The notes under the pieces are model-generated. The model did not search any database. It worked only from the letters and a program-made list of their open reading frames with translations, and was not told the DNA's origin. Below, in pieces: positions 20,621-30,515 of a DNA stretch of 37,128 nt. Numbering within the stretch: the stretch's first letter is position 1; each line of letters opens with the position of its first letter. The translations under genes and the position numbers were made by a program. This DNA is from Anaerolineales bacterium (GTDB taxonomy: Bacteria; Chloroflexota; Anaerolineae; Anaerolineales; Villigracilaceae): assembly GCA_016789365.1 (NCBI GenBank), contig JAEURH010000027.1:1-37128 (forward strand), in the 5' to 3' direction.

Positions 20621-23600
20621 TCAGCGAGCAAAGGTTTCAAGGTAATTTGTCAAAACATTTGGTATTGACTTTAATATGTGCATTAAATCCTTGCGACCAT
20701 GTTGTAAAGTTTTGGATTCGTATTTTTCAAATATGAGTATGCCTTCGCTTAATTTCATTTTGAGTTGATGCAGAAATTTCTTATCGGCAGTTTCAAGCAA
20801 AGCACAATCCGATTCTAAATCAGAATCTGGTTGATGTAATTTTTTATTAAGTGATTCTTCATGCGCCAAAAATTGTTTTGCTAAGGTTGAGTTTTGAATT
20901 TGAGCAATTTGTTTTTGCATCCAATCGGCAGATGCTTTTTCATCGCACAAACTAGCAGTGATTAACCAAAGTTGATGAAGTGGTTCGCCAAACATTTTGT
21001 TTTGATAATCACGCCGAAAACGCGCATGGCTTTGCAAATATTGTTGATGACGATACACAGAAGGTGCAACCCCTGAATTAATTTCATTGTAGGTCATCGC
21101 TTCATAGCGAACACTAAAATCATTGGCGAGCGCATTTTCCATTTCAACAATTTGATATAAAAAGCGAATCCATAAACGATAAACATCTTGCAAGGTGATA
21201 AATTGCAAACCATTGTTCGAAAGTGAAACGCCCCAGCCTTGCGATAAATCTAAACGGCGCACCACACCAATTTCATACATGGCTAACAAAGCATCCACTT
21301 CTGGATTGGCTTGATGAAGCACCATGCGATACGCGGCAGTGGCATCCATGCCTGAGTATGAACGCATGATTTTTAATCCGCCTGGATGTAAATGTATAAA
21401 CTCACCGACATCATATACACGACCATCAATTATCATCCAATAACCATTTTCATCGTTGTTATGTGAAATCACTTGTGAGGCAGGGATGAGATTCGATTTT
21501 GAAAAATGCGCACCAGCATAGGTTGTGAAAACTTCCTGCAAATAACGGTCTTCACCGACCAACTTGTATAAAATTTGTTGAGCAGAATTTTCATCGTGAC
21601 CTTGCCCATGAAGTATTTTTTTGATGGCATTCATCACCGTGCTTGCAAATTCGGCATGACCACAAATGTAAAAGACCGCCTTGTTTTGAATCAGTTGGTA
21701 AATTATTTTTGCATTTTCTTCGCGCAACATTTCAGAATCAATGTATCCGCGTTTGCCATTGCTGAAATGAAAGCGCTTCTTTTTAATTTCAATTTGTTTG
21801 TCGCTTCGTGAAAATGCAACTCTGATTTGTAATTTGTTTTGGTTTACATAATCTTCAAGTTCATCGCTGTAATACAAATCATCAGGGGTGCGTGTGCCAA
21901 AGAACAACCAATTTTCGCCACTGGATTCATTTACTCGCGCTTGAATCAAACTGCGAAATGGAGCCAAACCTGTTCCGCCTGCAAACATCACAATTGGTTG
22001 AGATGAATCTTTTGGCAAACTAAAACGCGGCGGATGTAATAACCGAATCGAAACACGCCTGCTATTGGATTGTGAATCAAGCAAACGAGATAAGTATCCC
22101 GAACCAACGCCTTTTCTTTGGGCATGGTTTGAAACAGCAGTAGCAGGGGTTTCATAATTTAACCCACCTACCATTAATTGAAGGGATGTTAATTCTTGCG
22201 TTTGCGAATCTGTCTCAATCGAAGCAATCGAATAAATACGAAATGTTTCAGGCGGCACAATGCGGCAAATTCGTTCTACTTCACCTGCTTCGGCTTTCCA
22301 TAAACGGCGCGGGTCAAACCCATTTTGGCTTAATACATTTAATAAATCCCACAATTCCCATTGGTCTTCGGCGCGTGCCTCTAAAATTTTCCATAACGTT
22401 TGGTTATGAGTAATGCCATACAAAGTTTTTGCAGTTTCACGCAATATCGGGCGAATACGCCCAAAGGTTAACAAAGTTCGTAGTGATAATATTTTTGCTT
22501 GCTCGTATCCATCTCTTAATTTCACGGCTTCACGCCAAACTGTGTTAAGTTGAATCGGTTCATCGCCTAAAGCGTTTAATGCATCTAATGTTTTTTGTAC
22601 CAACACAGGGTCATTCTCTGGCAAAATCGCACAACGGTCACCTGGCTGGCAAGATAATCCCAAGCCTTGCACATCAAATGTAATTTGTTTTACCCATTTT
22701 TCATTTTCAACTCGCACATCACTTACATCTTTCACATTCACAAAATGTGTCACTTGCGGGTAGCGTGCATAACGCTCAGCCCGCGCACGTTCTAACTCAC
22801 CATCCATTTTGTCCCACATGCGGTCGTCAAATGCGCCAGAAAAACCACCCAATGTTTTGCTGCGTCCCGCTTTGAAAGATAAATCTAAAAATCCGTATGT
22901 CTTCAAACGATGCCGCCCCAATAAACCTGTTTCACCTGCATACGCATCCATTGCCGTTTGAAACAAGCCCGATAAACTTTTATCGTTTGCTTGTTTTACA
23001 AAATCAACCACAGAAATTTTTTCAACGGCATCCAAAAAATTCCGCCAGTGACGTGGAAACCAAGTACGCGCATGATTCGTTTCTTTGCCAATGTTGCTGG
23101 CATACACATTTCTGCCAAACAAAATGTCCAGCAGTTGAAATGCAGGAATGGCAGTGCCGCTCGGTCCGGGAATTCCGCCTTCGGTTTGAAACGGCGTTGC
23201 CAATGGCGCAACCGTTTTGCCCCACACCACAGGGTTTACATACAATGGATGATACGAATTTGGATTGACTTTCATAAACGTATCATAAGTAAGCGATTGC
23301 AACTTAGATAAAATGAATCTCAATTCGGATTTAATCGCTTCAATATCTTGACTGATAACTGCTTCTTGTACCCGAACCGTAGACTCCACTACGGGCGAAA
23401 ACCGCCCCATCATTTCAGTGGGGGTCATCTGAAAACGGCGTTCATCTTCATTGCCTAAAATTGGAATCAATAAAGATAAATTTTCCATTCGCATTGGGTC
23501 TGCTACATTTGGATTTATGTATCGCCAGTTGTATGCGTTCAAATCTATAAAAGATAAATTGGGAGCAGGTTGTTCAAGTCGTTTGCTGATTTCATTCCAC

Positions 23601-23959
23601 GGCTTTTGAATCGAATCAGGAATCTTTTCGTAAGGGTCAGGTTGCACATAATGATAGGCGTGTGCAAAAATTCCGAAGATGGCAGAGGCGCGCAACAAAT
23701 CTGCGTCAGGTAAAGAATCGGCTTGGGCTGAGAGAACAGGCATACGGTCAAGTTTGAAGCGTAATGTGACCGTGCGAAACATCTCAGGTAATTGAGAAGC
23801 CATCTCATCCCAAATCGCATGTTGAGGTGATGTCAATTTCAAACTGGGTTGTGAAGTTGGCATGAAGCCGTGTGAAGCGGATAAAAATCCAAAATTTTCG
23901 TGACCTAATTTTTTATTTTCTGCTTCGGCTTCAACTAAAACTTGGCGACTTGGAATCAT
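20621..23959 (-). CDS. Fusion of indoleamine 2,3-dioxygenase-like, FAD/NAD(P)H reductase and cytochrome b5 domains
   Basis: A 1112-residue multidomain protein. Residues about 20-375 resemble indoleamine 2,3-dioxygenase: VNPNSYHPLYV, the SGT loop in GGIPGPSGTAIPAFQLLD, WFPRHWRNFLDAVE, and H350 in GRHRLKTYGF at the place of the proximal haem histidine. Residues about 410-810 match the FAD module of cytochrome P450 reductase without its flavodoxin domain: RIYS (574), GVGSGYL (617), MFAGGTGLAPFRS (658), FFGTRT (686), YICGH (764). Residues about 825-900 are a cytochrome b5 fold with HPGG (H858) and H882, the usual 24-residue spacing of haem ligands. The last 200 residues are helical and unrecognised. 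The start at 23959 overlaps the upstream stop (TAATG). No signal peptide; cytoplasmic. Confidence 0.85.
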   Translation of the reverse strand: MIPSRQVLVEAEAENKKLGHENFGFLSASHGFMPTSQPSLKLTSPQHAIWDEMASQLPEMFRTVTLRFKLDRMPVLSAQADSLPDADLLRASAIFGIFAHAYHYVQPDPYEKIPDSIQKPWNEISKRLEQPAPNLSFIDLNAYNWRYINPNVADPMRMENLSLLIPILGNEDERRFQMTPTEMMGRFSPVVESTVRVQEAVISQDIEAIKSELRFILSKLQSLTYDTFMKVNPNSYHPLYVNPVVWGKTVAPLATPFQTEGGIPGPSGTAIPAFQLLDILFGRNVYASNIGKETNHARTWFPRHWRNFLDAVEKISVVDFVKQANDKSLSGLFQTAMDAYAGETGLLGRHRLKTYGFLDLSFKAGRSKTLGGFSGAFDDRMWDKMDGELERARAERYARYPQVTHFVNVKDVSDVRVENEKWVKQITFDVQGLGLSCQPGDRCAILPENDPVLVQKTLDALNALGDEPIQLNTVWREAVKLRDGYEQAKILSLRTLLTFGRIRPILRETAKTLYGITHNQTLWKILEARAEDQWELWDLLNVLSQNGFDPRRLWKAEAGEVERICRIVPPETFRIYSIASIETDSQTQELTSLQLMVGGLNYETPATAVSNHAQRKGVGSGYLSRLLDSQSNSRRVSIRLLHPPRFSLPKDSSQPIVMFAGGTGLAPFRSLIQARVNESSGENWLFFGTRTPDDLYYSDELEDYVNQNKLQIRVAFSRSDKQIEIKKKRFHFSNGKRGYIDSEMLREENAKIIYQLIQNKAVFYICGHAEFASTVMNAIKKILHGQGHDENSAQQILYKLVGEDRYLQEVFTTYAGAHFSKSNLIPASQVISHNNDENGYWMIIDGRVYDVGEFIHLHPGGLKIMRSYSGMDATAAYRMVLHQANPEVDALLAMYEIGVVRRLDLSQGWGVSLSNNGLQFITLQDVYRLWIRFLYQIVEMENALANDFSVRYEAMTYNEINSGVAPSVYRHQQYLQSHARFRRDYQNKMFGEPLHQLWLITASLCDEKASADWMQKQIAQIQNSTLAKQFLAHEESLNKKLHQPDSDLESDCALLETADKKFLHQLKMKLSEGILIFEKYESKTLQHGRKDLMHILKSIPNVLTNYLETFAR

Positions 23960-24825
23960 TACCAACCCCCTACCACTGCCTGACAAATATTTGCGCGTGA
24001 AACCGTGCCGAGCAAACGACCATTTTCTACAACGGGCAAACGTCGAATTTGTAAATTAATTAAAATTGTTGCGGCTTTGGCAACATGGTCATCGGGGTGT
24101 AACACTAGCGGGTTATGAATCACAAGCGGCATGATAGGTCTTTCGGAAAGTGCTTGCCCTTTTCGCAAAAAAAGATGATAGGCATCAAGCAATGTGCCGC
24201 CTTCTTCAAGAATTTCTTCGGCATTGGGCAATGCGGCGCGCAGAATATCACCTTCGGATAATACGCCGACAAAATCACCATCTTGATTGATGACCATTAA
24301 ATCTCCAATGCCTGAGAGTGCCACAATTTCTGCGGCGTGACGAAGATTTGAATTATCACGAATGCGTGCGGCTTGATTGTTCATGATTCCTTTTACTTGC
24401 ATGGTTGGCAATCGAACATCGGCTTGCCATGAATCAAGTAAATCATTTAGTGCGGGGTATAAATTTTCTTCGGGGTTGTTAATGGGTTGCACAAGGTAAC
24501 GGTCTATGCCCACTTCGTTAATGCTACGAATTGCACTTTCACTATCTGCAAAATCTGAAAGCAAAATTTTTCGAGCATGTGGATAATAACGGCTAGCTTC
24601 GATTAAGAATTTCATGCCATTCATGTGCGGCATTTGTTGATGGGCTAAGAATAAGGCAACGTCATCTTCTTGATTAATATAGATTTGTACTTGTGCCAAC
24701 GCTTCTTCACCTGATGCGGCAGTTGTGATTTGATATTCGGGTTGGAATTTTTTTTCAATTAGTGCAGTTAAGTTTTTTAGGATGTCTTTATTTTCATTGA
24801 TAAGAAAGAGAATCGGTTTTTTCAT
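23959..24825 (-). CDS. Pseudo-receiver protein with two CBS domains
   Basis: A 288-residue protein with an N-terminal response-regulator fold (about 1-135) and a CBS pair (about 150-288). The receiver resembles the one in response regulator-thioredoxin reductase fusions, but the key residues are changed: the acidic pocket reads INEN (9-12), the phospho-acceptor Asp is H62 (AHQQMPHMNG) and the conserved Lys is Q113 (LVQPINN). It cannot be phosphorylated in the normal way. CBS domains usually bind adenine nucleotides or SAM. Its stop and the start of the fusion gene share TAATG, so it is probably co-translated and may regulate that enzyme. The start at 24825 follows AAAAGGTCTATTGTATG; an upstream extension crosses hairpin repeats. 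Confidence 0.85.
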   Translation of the reverse strand: MKKPILFLINENKDILKNLTALIEKKFQPEYQITTAASGEEALAQVQIYINQEDDVALFLAHQQMPHMNGMKFLIEASRYYPHARKILLSDFADSESAIRSINEVGIDRYLVQPINNPEENLYPALNDLLDSWQADVRLPTMQVKGIMNNQAARIRDNSNLRHAAEIVALSGIGDLMVINQDGDFVGVLSEGDILRAALPNAEEILEEGGTLLDAYHLFLRKGQALSERPIMPLVIHNPLVLHPDDHVAKAATILINLQIRRLPVVENGRLLGTVSRANICQAVVGGW

Positions 24826-24963: not shown

Positions 24964-25347
24964 TTAATCAACAATCACAACCAACTCAATTTCTACTTTT
25001 GCGCCCAAAGGCAAAGCCCCTGCCTGATATGTAGTACGAGCAGGCGGTTTATCACCCATGTATTTTCCGTACACTTGATTCATTTCTGCAAAATAACTCA
25101 TATCGCCTAACAACACGGTGGCTTTGACTGTATGTTCAAAACTTGTGCCAGCCGCTTGCAACACGGCTTGTAAGTTTTGCATCACTTGTTCGGTTTCTTC
25201 GGCTACGGAACCTGTCACCATTTTGCCAGTGGATGGACTCAATGCAATTTGCCCCGCTGTAAATAACAAGTTGCCTGCTTTTACACCTTGCGAATAAGGT
25301 CCAACAACAGCAGGTGTTTTTTCTGTGAAGATAATTTCTTTTTGCAT
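24964..25347 (-). CDS. ridA: RidA family enamine/imine deaminase
   Basis: Hydrolyses reactive enamine/imine intermediates such as 2-aminoacrylate to oxo acids and ammonia. The 127-residue protein has the full YjgF/YER057c/UK114 pattern: GPYSQGVKAGNLLFTAGQI, the substrate-binding R104 in PPARTTYQ and E119 in VEIELV. The start follows CCTAAGGAGCATCTCATG. A TATAAT box lies at 25383-25378 on the reverse strand, 30 bp upstream, without a clear -35. It precedes the CBS/dioxygenase genes on the same strand, so the three may share a transcript; RidA would fit a role in detoxifying products of amino acid catabolism. Confidence 0.95.
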   Translation of the reverse strand: MQKEIIFTEKTPAVVGPYSQGVKAGNLLFTAGQIALSPSTGKMVTGSVAEETEQVMQNLQAVLQAAGTSFEHTVKATVLLGDMSYFAEMNQVYGKYMGDKPPARTTYQAGALPLGAKVEIELVVIVD

Positions 25348-28193: not shown

Positions 28194-30440
28194 TTATTTT
28201 AAATATTGACTCGTCAAAGAACGCTTCACACTTAATAACTGCTTGGGTGTGCCTTCGAAAATCACTTCCCCACCTTTGCTTCCGCCTTCGGGACCCATGT
28301 CAATAATCCAATCCGCATTTTTGATGACGTGTAGATTATGTTCAATCACAATGACCGTGTTGCCCGTATCCACGAGGCGGTTCATCACTTCAAGCAAATG
28401 CCCAATATCAGACATGTGCAATCCAGTGGTAGGTTCATCCATAATGTAGATGCTTCCCTTTTTATGCAACTCACTTGCTAACTTAATTCTTTGGCATTCA
28501 CCACCAGACAGTGTGCTCAACGGTTGACCTAAACTTAAATAATCCAAACCGACATCGCTCATGGCTTGCAAGATGCGTTTGACTTCTTTAATTTCAAAAA
28601 ATTCCAAAGCCTGACTCACATTCATAGATAAAACTTCTGAAATATTTTTTCCATTGAGTTTATATTTCAACACTTCATCTTTGAAGCGTTTACCTTCACA
28701 CACTTCACATGGAAGTTTGGCTTCACTCAAAAATGCTAAGTCAGTGTAAACCACACCCAATCCCTGACAATTTTCACAAGCACCTTTTGAATTGAAACTA
28801 AACAAAGCGGGTTGCACTTTATTAGCACTTGCAAATGCTTTACGAATATCATCCATAATACCCGTGTATGTGGCAGGGTTTGAACGGCTATTCACACCCA
28901 CTGCTGATTGGTCAATCACAATTGCATCCGCGTGTTGTTTCAAAAAGACTTCATGAATCAAAGAACTTTTTCCCGAACCAGCTACACCTGTTACAACAGT
29001 TAATACACCAGTTGGAATATCCACACTGACATTTTTCAAATTATTTGCTTTGGCATTCTTAATCGGAAGTTTGCCAGTTGGCTCACGAAAATTATCTTTA
29101 AGAGAAATTTTTTCTTTGATGTGAGTACCCGTCAACGTTTTGGCTTTGAGCAGATTTGCATAACTGCCTTCATAGACAATTTCGCCTCCATGCTTGCCCG
29201 CTTTTGGTCCTACATCGACGATATGGTCTGCCGCCTTGATGACATCTGGGTCATGCTCTACAACGATGACTGTGTTGCCTTTATCTCTCAACTTTTGTAA
29301 CAATTCATTCATACGATGCACATCGCGCGGATGTAAACCAACACTGGGTTCGTCGAAAATATACATCACATCTGTGAGACTGCTACTTAAATGTTTGACT
29401 ATCTTCACACGTTGTGACTCACCACCAGACAATGTATCTGTCTCGCGATTGAGACTCAAATATTCCAAACCAATATCTACTAAATGTCCTAAACGTTCAG
29501 CCAATGTTTTGACCATAGAAGCGGCGACGGGTTCTTTAATGGCTTTGATCACTTTAATCAATTCGGTGATTTCCATATTTGCCATGTCTGCAATGTTATA
29601 GCCATTGATTTTGCTTTTCAAAATCGTTTGACTCAACCTCGCGCCTTTACATTCCGAACAATGACCCATGGTCATAAATGGTTCAATTTGTTTTTGAGTC
29701 CGTTCAGACATGGTCTTTAAATCACGCTTGATATATTTATTTGTAAATTGGTCAACAATGCCACTAAAGGTCATGTTGAATTCTTTTGCACCCACATTCG
29801 TTTTGACTTTCATGGGCGGATGATGCAAAAGCGCATCCATTTCTTTTGCAGTGTATTTGGATAACTTTTTATCAGGATCAAAAAGTTTTGTATTAATCAA
29901 CAAACTCCAACCCCAACTATTCACCGCGTATTCGCCGAATAAAATCGCGCCTTCATTTAATGATTTGGATGTATCTAAAAATTTATCCATATCCACATCT
30001 AGTTTGCGACCCAGTCCATTACAGTTTGGGCACATGCCTTGCGGATTGTTAAACCCAAATAAATAAGCAGGTCCAACAAATGGTTTTCCGATTCGTGAAA
30101 ACAGTAAACGTAAAAGTGTATAAATATCAGTTGCAGTTCCAACTGTGGAATGTGAACCACCACCCAATCGCTTTTGGTCCACCACAACAGACATGCTCAA
30201 GTTTTCAATCGAGTCTGCATCAGGTTGAGGATATTTCGGTAAAAAGTTACGCACAAACATGCTGAAATTTTCATTCAACAATCTTTGTGCTTCAGTTGCA
30301 ATCGTGTCAAACACAATTGAAGATTTTCCAGAACCAGAAACGCCTGTAAAAATCGTTATCTTTCTCTTTGGGATTTTCAAAGAAACATTTTTTAGGTTGT
30401 TCTCTCGTGCATGTTTAATCTCAATATATTCTTGGGTCAT
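28194..30440 (-). CDS. Short UvrA-like ABC ATPase (UvrA2/DrrC type)
   Basis: A 748-residue protein with two ABC ATPase halves: Walker A GVSGSGKSS (33-41) and GVAGSGKSS in the second half, signatures LSGGESQRVKI and LSGGECQRIKL, and UvrA zinc-binding motifs CPNCNGLG, CSECKGARL and CENCQGLG. Compared with the usual 940 or so residues of UvrA, the segment between YTLLRLLFSRIGKP and FGFNNPQGMCPNC lacks the UvrB-binding domain. Such class II UvrA proteins (for example DrrC) are associated with resistance to DNA-binding drugs rather than with general excision repair. The start at 30440 follows AATAAGGAAAAATTTATG. Neighbours are an MFS exporter and a FAD oxidase. Confidence 0.92.
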   Translation of the reverse strand: MTQEYIEIKHARENNLKNVSLKIPKRKITIFTGVSGSGKSSIVFDTIATEAQRLLNENFSMFVRNFLPKYPQPDADSIENLSMSVVVDQKRLGGGSHSTVGTATDIYTLLRLLFSRIGKPFVGPAYLFGFNNPQGMCPNCNGLGRKLDVDMDKFLDTSKSLNEGAILFGEYAVNSWGWSLLINTKLFDPDKKLSKYTAKEMDALLHHPPMKVKTNVGAKEFNMTFSGIVDQFTNKYIKRDLKTMSERTQKQIEPFMTMGHCSECKGARLSQTILKSKINGYNIADMANMEITELIKVIKAIKEPVAASMVKTLAERLGHLVDIGLEYLSLNRETDTLSGGESQRVKIVKHLSSSLTDVMYIFDEPSVGLHPRDVHRMNELLQKLRDKGNTVIVVEHDPDVIKAADHIVDVGPKAGKHGGEIVYEGSYANLLKAKTLTGTHIKEKISLKDNFREPTGKLPIKNAKANNLKNVSVDIPTGVLTVVTGVAGSGKSSLIHEVFLKQHADAIVIDQSAVGVNSRSNPATYTGIMDDIRKAFASANKVQPALFSFNSKGACENCQGLGVVYTDLAFLSEAKLPCEVCEGKRFKDEVLKYKLNGKNISEVLSMNVSQALEFFEIKEVKRILQAMSDVGLDYLSLGQPLSTLSGGECQRIKLASELHKKGSIYIMDEPTTGLHMSDIGHLLEVMNRLVDTGNTVIVIEHNLHVIKNADWIIDMGPEGGSKGGEVIFEGTPKQLLSVKRSLTSQYLK

Positions 30441-30455
30441 AAATTTTTCCTTATT

Positions 30456-30515
30456 GTAGGGACACAGCAAAACAATTTATTGTCATAATCTTTGTTCGTC
30501 TCGCTGTGTCCCTAC
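30456..30515. repeat. GTAGGGACACAGC inverted repeat
   Basis: GTAGGGACACAGC (30456-30468) is perfectly mirrored by GCTGTGTCCCTAC (30503-30515) around an AT-rich centre. It lies between the FAD oxidase stop and the UvrA-like gene and has the look of another REP-type family. Confidence 0.8.

Follow-up and report, generated by a model that had tools for sequence, protein, structure and literature searches.

The window, as the whole 37,128-nucleotide stretch of DNA analysed here is called, encodes a 1112-residue protein (20621–23959, minus strand) in which an indoleamine 2,3-dioxygenase (IDO) domain, a FAD/NAD(P)H module of the CPR/CysJ type, a cytochrome b5 domain and a conserved helical C-terminal domain are joined in a single chain. 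We consider this fusion to be probably a self-sufficient, NADPH-driven, His-ligated haem oxygenase with an IDO fold, belonging to the HDAO superfamily, with a noncanonical substrate pocket and under the control of nucleotide or phospho-signals. This reading is built on the observed architecture, fold, conservation of ligand residues, operon partner, and loss of tryptophan-binding residues. The features referred to below are as follows.

20621..23959, minus strand: fusion protein, 1112 residues, four parts in one chain (open reading frame and domain matches)
22760..23959, minus strand: IDO-fold domain, predicted to bind haem, residues 1–400
22910–22912, minus strand: proximal His350 of the IDO domain
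21524..22759, minus strand: CPR/CysJ-type FAD and NAD(P)H module, residues 401–812
21260..21478, minus strand: cytochrome b5 domain, residues 828–900 (PF00173)
21386–21388 and 21314–21316, minus strand: b5 histidines His858 and His882, respectively
20624..21253, minus strand: C-terminal helical domain, residues 903–1112 (structure model)
23959..24825, minus strand: REC and CBS-pair protein (Response_reg, E 1.8e-10; CBS, two stretches, E 1.7e-19)
24964..25347, minus strand: RidA-family gene upstream of REC-CBS (PF01042, E 1.2e-37; TIGR00004 over cut-off)
28197–30470, minus strand: UvrA-like protein, 758 residues (ABC_tran and UvrA DNA-binding-domain match)

The profile search suggested in a preliminary description of this DNA was run, and the Pfam IDO model (PF01231) matched the fusion at 112.9 bits against a curated cut-off of 26. 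The IDO fold spans residues 1–403, proximal-His helix included, and combines a TDO/IDO-like helical architecture with a histidine positioned as putative haem ligand, the features by which the HDAO fold is recognised. The reductase module has the fold of the FAD module of CPR and SiR; no Pfam match to an FMN flavodoxin domain was detected in the fusion or in the 40 aligned members (the window's protein and 39 of 52 nearly complete members). Matches among these 40 were obtained for IDO in 40, Cyt-b5 in 40, NAD_binding_1 in 39, and FAD_binding_1 in 36, confirming the earlier proposal that IDO, FAD/NAD(P)H and b5 domains share one chain, and the proposed domain order recurs in 52 nearly complete relatives. 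His350, previously named as the candidate proximal ligand, and the b5 pair His858 and His882 are likewise invariant in 40 of 40 aligned members, in agreement with the roles assigned to them. The C-terminal domain was modelled (residues 902–1112) with a pLDDT of 94.1, and no convincing relative was found for it in Pfam, PDB sequences, or PDB folds.

A genome scan queried with a five-row alignment (A1) returned 215 stretches encoding a relative, of which 80 were kept. The same chain is encoded by 56 of the kept loci (L019–L074), 52 of them essentially complete; three of the others (L021, L032 and L033) run off their contigs, and unresolved bases interrupt L055. Among the other kept loci, L075 matches only 380–664 and L076–L098 match only the reductase part. 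Finding this chain in 52 nearly complete loci, spread over many records, rules out misassembly or another artefact, and chance motifs were ruled out by the Pfam domain matches in the window's protein and the 40 aligned members. By record title, the 56 loci belong to five phyla (31 Actinomycetota, 17 Chloroflexota, 4 Pseudomonadota, 3 Armatimonadota, and 1 Myxococcota), counts that include many possibly misbinned MAGs as well as named strains, namely Ktedonospora (Chloroflexota) and several actinomycete records. A viral gene was rejected (20 pattern stretches in viral_contigs, none confirmed as a relative), as were a plasmid gene (48 matching plasmid records, none over 80% of the query, with the 20 listed of the 48 covering at most 38% of it, within the reductase part) and a defence system (PADLOC gave no match for the four proteins supplied). 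No paper found describes the architecture, as judged by title and start of abstract in a literature search with most subscription journals outside its coverage; the domains and fold class are already known, and in the literature searched there seems to be no description of their combination, of the altered IDO subfamily, or of the C-terminal domain.

The distribution of the fusion gene is patchy. Carriers make up 4 of 37 genomes in the window's genus, 17 of 200 in one actinobacterial order, and 3 of 400 in a Chloroflexota search (E up to 1e-20) that also returned one b5 and C-terminal piece; with the centre genome counted in each, 3 of 396 Actinomycetota, 4 of 188 Myxococcota, and 1 of 201 Armatimonadota genomes carry it. 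Throughout the searches of the actinobacterial order, Actinomycetota, Myxococcota, and Armatimonadota, every IDO match of the fusion type (E under 1e-100) falls in a frame of 1177 codons or more, apart from the 687-codon frame of a reductase-less variant, L103. Weaker, canonical-type IDO matches in the same searches lie mostly in frames of about 390–440 codons (exceptions: 636, 881, 960, and 981). Separately, an 877-residue frame with a provisional start (L130:932–3562, plus strand) has about 500 residues without a Pfam match followed by a complete canonical IDO (E 1e-98). The Chloroflexota piece (L013:1393–2376, minus strand, genome G142) encodes b5 and the C-terminal domain in one frame and shares 80% identity with the corresponding part of the Ktedonospora fusion; a stop lies just upstream, and no reductase was found in the remaining 141 bases before the contig ends. 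It is either a broken copy or a separate protein, and not simply contig-cut.

In a quick tree of the 40 fusion IDOs and seven stand-alone Chloroflexota IDOs, in which several terminal branches are long and 18 of 44 internal branches are unresolved, the fusions occupy one side of a branch with an SH-aLRT of 100 that is itself flanked by long branches. Pairwise distances of the IDO, reductase, b5, and C-terminal parts correlate with one another (r 0.84–0.97). From these two observations we conclude that the chain has been inherited largely as a unit. The Ktedonospora fusion clusters with actinomycete fusions (support 100), a placement that points to transfer across phylum borders.

Arg231 of IDO1 anchors the tryptophan carboxylate. 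When this column was placed by sequence alignment (the IDO2 alignment plus canonical bacterial IDOs, without superposed coordinates), arginine occupied it in 0 of 40 members, and the GTG[GS][TS] loop was absent from all 40, yet Arg231 is kept by the seven stand-alone IDOs from Chloroflexota, the same phylum as the window. The six stand-alone proteins that reach the loop read GTGGT in five cases and GTGST in one. Lys248 is kept in 39 of 40 members, and an arginine two residues off the Arg231 column (Arg238) is present in 17 of 40, the window's protein not among them. PMC12312684 attributes to this loop a part in setting the outcome of oxidation in MarE and in IDO/TDO. Since the residues that usually grip tryptophan are missing, the fusion probably oxidises something else, and canonically bound L-Trp is probably not its substrate. 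The tryptophan substrate entertained in the preliminary description is thus left unsupported, though it is not disproved.

A gene encoding a CBS pair adjoins the fusion in 53 of 56 loci, lying downstream rather than upstream in L058. Two of the three remaining loci (L021 and L033) start at a contig end. The third, L074, comes from a species with two copies of the fusion, and there the CBS gene accompanies the other copy, L044; two further members found, L131 and L132, also have it. In the window, the CBS pair is joined to a REC domain, and the REC-CBS stop codon and the fusion's ATG share one base (TAATG); the listed frame runs to 24954, and the start at 24825 was picked by likeness to L003. 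Across 23 aligned CBS proteins, the first half carries G-x-x-[SA]-x-x-D and the second half G-x-x-S-x-x-[DN], with Asn in the second-half motif of the window's protein, and we take these motifs to resemble the usual nucleotide-site motif. An N-terminal extension of at least 90 residues is found in 34 of the 52 nearly complete loci, with an FHA match in all 34, and these FHA-bearing members form two parts of the tree rather than one branch. The L053 fusion adds two cNMP-binding stretches. Also recurrent near the fusion, although neither is universal, are a cluster of 14 ORFs in 12 loci, the one scanned being sensor-kinase-like (HAMP, HisKA, and HATPase), and RidA. The window's RidA-family (enamine/imine deaminase-like) gene, directly upstream of REC-CBS, is a looser member of the fusion's own gene cluster, a gene of this kind lying upstream in seven listed relative loci (L004 and L022 being the same genome). 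Neighbour ORFs were called by a simple longest-frame rule that is weak in G+C-rich DNA, and a nine-'gene' neighbour cluster was rejected as antisense noise over the fusion itself.

Other domain additions were also observed. In a Chromatiaceae MAG (L037:1330–6048, plus strand), a saccharopine-dehydrogenase-like domain follows the C-terminal domain in one frame. Three members of about 1600 residues from the Myxococcota search (L125:1361–6124, plus strand; L126:2719–7584, minus strand; L127:3058–7911, minus strand) carry a GGACT/AIG2-like domain at the N terminus and additional sequence at the C terminus, and no CBS neighbour was found for them in the 8.5–9 kb fetched. The same search returned a more distant IDO domain fused to a cyclic-nucleotide-binding domain (L128:2351–5182, plus strand; L129:3103–5994, minus strand), with a possible methyltransferase domain in L128.

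A natural variant of the fusion bears on the route of electrons.

L103:3176–5158, minus strand: reductase-less variant, 660 residues, with IDO, b5, and C-terminal domains

It lies about 57 kb from a full fusion on the same 1,348,287-base contig and fills 381 of 400 IDO columns, 58 of 77 b5 columns, and 176 of 210 C-terminal columns; of the 412 reductase columns, just 26 are filled. The proximal histidine and the b5 pair are intact, two otherwise invariant C-terminal residues (998 and 1077) differ, and no CBS gene was found in the 7 kb fetched. Retention of b5 with IDO after loss of the reductase fits the expectation for b5 as the direct electron donor, although this is the only example, and the copy may be degenerating. 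The electron supply within the chain, put forward in the preliminary description, therefore holds up as an idea, with the chain kept in 52 relatives and only the reductase lost in L103; the path itself is a proposal. A preprint (PMC13142367) reports that CPR, with or without b5, supports IDO1 activity in vitro, and describes the reduction of IDO1 in cells and the role of CPR and b5 in vivo as unclear. For the HDAO enzyme MarE, PMC12312684 describes a shift toward monooxygenation, i.e., one-oxygen products, with ascorbate and mainly dioxygenase behaviour without it.

For the fusion, we infer the haem and flavin content, the electron path, oxygenation, and regulation. NADPH would reduce the FAD of the CPR/CysJ-type module; from the FAD, electrons would pass one at a time to the haem of b5, which would in turn reduce the IDO-type haem, where O2 would be bound and activated. 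Because the reductase is built in, electrons may be used at each turnover, in monooxygenation or a related reaction, beyond priming the haem. The remodelled pocket would accept a substrate other than canonically held L-Trp, and the CBS-pair partner (REC-fused in the window), together with the FHA domain of many relatives, would probably turn the enzyme on or off in response to adenine nucleotide or phospho-signals. Counting against the proposed oxygenase are L074, the three Myxococcota members, and the L103 variant, all without a detected CBS gene, as well as the mainly dioxygenase behaviour of MarE without ascorbate. A stronger form of the proposal, that the fusion is the first natural self-sufficient His-ligated (IDO-fold) haem oxygenase and the counterpart of P450 BM3, with a NADPH-FAD-b5 chain driving monooxygenation of a substrate other than L-Trp in a remodelled IDO pocket, under the gating of a dedicated CBS nucleotide sensor and, in many members, of FHA, is possible but somewhat doubtful, and is offered tentatively.

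Several other readings were weighed against the proposed oxygenase. The fusion could be a self-sufficient tryptophan or indole 2,3-dioxygenase whose chain only keeps the haem ferrous, yielding N-formylkynurenine or an indole analogue. Such an enzyme would agree with the IDO fold and proximal His, with Lys248 and the Arg238 of some members, and with the reported support of IDO1 by CPR with or without b5, but not with the 40 of 40 members that have neither arginine in the Arg231 column nor the GTGGT loop. Kynurenine-pathway genes were examined in 29 hand-picked carrier genomes. Kynureninase exceeds its cut-off in 17 of the 29, and nine of the 29 have no match in a search limited to TDO, as this reading would favour; however, kynureninase is about as common in a set of 61 genomes surrounding the window's, four of them carriers (33 of 61), and is not clearly enriched in carriers. 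A separate TDO is present in 20 of 29 carriers, within 5 kb of a kynureninase-family match in 11 of those 20, and the three genes (fusion, kynureninase, and TDO) are found on separate contigs of the window's genome (C199, C346, and C166, respectively). With a separate TDO in most of the sample, kynureninase not clearly enriched, and the window genome's genes on different contigs, a general role as the entry enzyme of the kynurenine pathway was rejected. Two carriers, G011 and G455, have kynureninase over the cut-off and no TDO match, so the fusion could be a tryptophan enzyme there. Overall, we regard the tryptophan or indole dioxygenase as unlikely. A stand-alone canonical IDO adjoins kynureninase in another genome from the window's order (G045:C407, L006); the fusion instead sits with the CBS gene.

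Alternatively, the IDO-type haem could bind O2, NO, or another ligand and signal to the CBS, REC, FHA, or cNMP partners, catalysis being secondary. A redox, gas, or ligand sensor of this type would explain the company the fusion keeps: the CBS gene in 53 of 56 loci and REC-CBS in the window, FHA in 34 of 34 extensions, the cNMP-binding stretches of L053 and the other IDO-cNMP fusions (L128 and L129), and the ORF cluster seen in 12 loci, whose one scanned protein is sensor-kinase-like. A complete reductase and b5 would nevertheless be costly for a sensor, and no DNA-binding, kinase, or cyclase output domain was detected in the full-length members scanned with Pfam, making a sensor fairly unlikely. 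Flavohaemoglobin follows a plan of haem domain plus FAD/NAD module, which the fusion resembles, and a NADPH-fed haem might dioxygenate NO in a similar manner or generate superoxide or peroxide. A flavohaemoprotein model does match, but only within the reductase (621–782, E 2e-8, far below its cut-off), the fold is that of IDO rather than globin, and the conserved remodelled pocket and added b5 would presumably be unneeded for such chemistry, which we consider highly improbable. The NADPH-driven oxygenase accordingly stays our preferred reading.

According to PMC12312684, whether MarE forms one-oxygen or two-oxygen products depends in part on its electron supply. With reductase, b5, and an IDO-fold oxygenase in one chain, and cultured actinomycetes among its sources, questions of IDO reduction and product outcome become addressable in a single protein. 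If the fusion is indeed a NADPH-driven His-haem oxygenase, it would offer a new self-sufficient biocatalyst scaffold outside the P450s, and its CBS and FHA partners would link a haem oxygenase directly to signalling.

Human IDO1 and IDO2 and canonical bacterial IDO differ from the fusion, which has no arginine in the Arg231 column and no GTGGT loop and which, relative to canonical IDO, adds the reductase, b5, the C-terminal domain, and CBS/FHA partners. Within the HDAO superfamily, of which PrnB is another member, MarE resembles the fusion in its His-ligated haem of the TDO/IDO kind (predicted in the fusion), but the sequence of the fusion is nearer to IDO. The SLGGR loop of MarE illustrates that HDAO loops other than GTGGS exist (PMC12312684), and MarE was assayed with ascorbate as reductant (PMC11904535 and PMC12312684), whereas the fusion has a built-in electron supply. 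The FAD/NAD module is like that of CysJ and NADPH-P450 reductase (24% identity to SiR-FP60, 1ddg, by Foldseek), although the fusion is without a detectable flavodoxin (FMN) domain. IDO1 supplied in trans by CPR and cytochrome b5 involves the same three partners as separate proteins, rather than as one polypeptide. If our model is right, the fusion is like P450 BM3 (CYP102A1) in joining a haem oxygenase and a CPR-type reductase in one chain, the reductases being homologous, but would employ a His-ligated IDO-fold haem domain instead, with b5 in place of the FMN domain, of which none was found.
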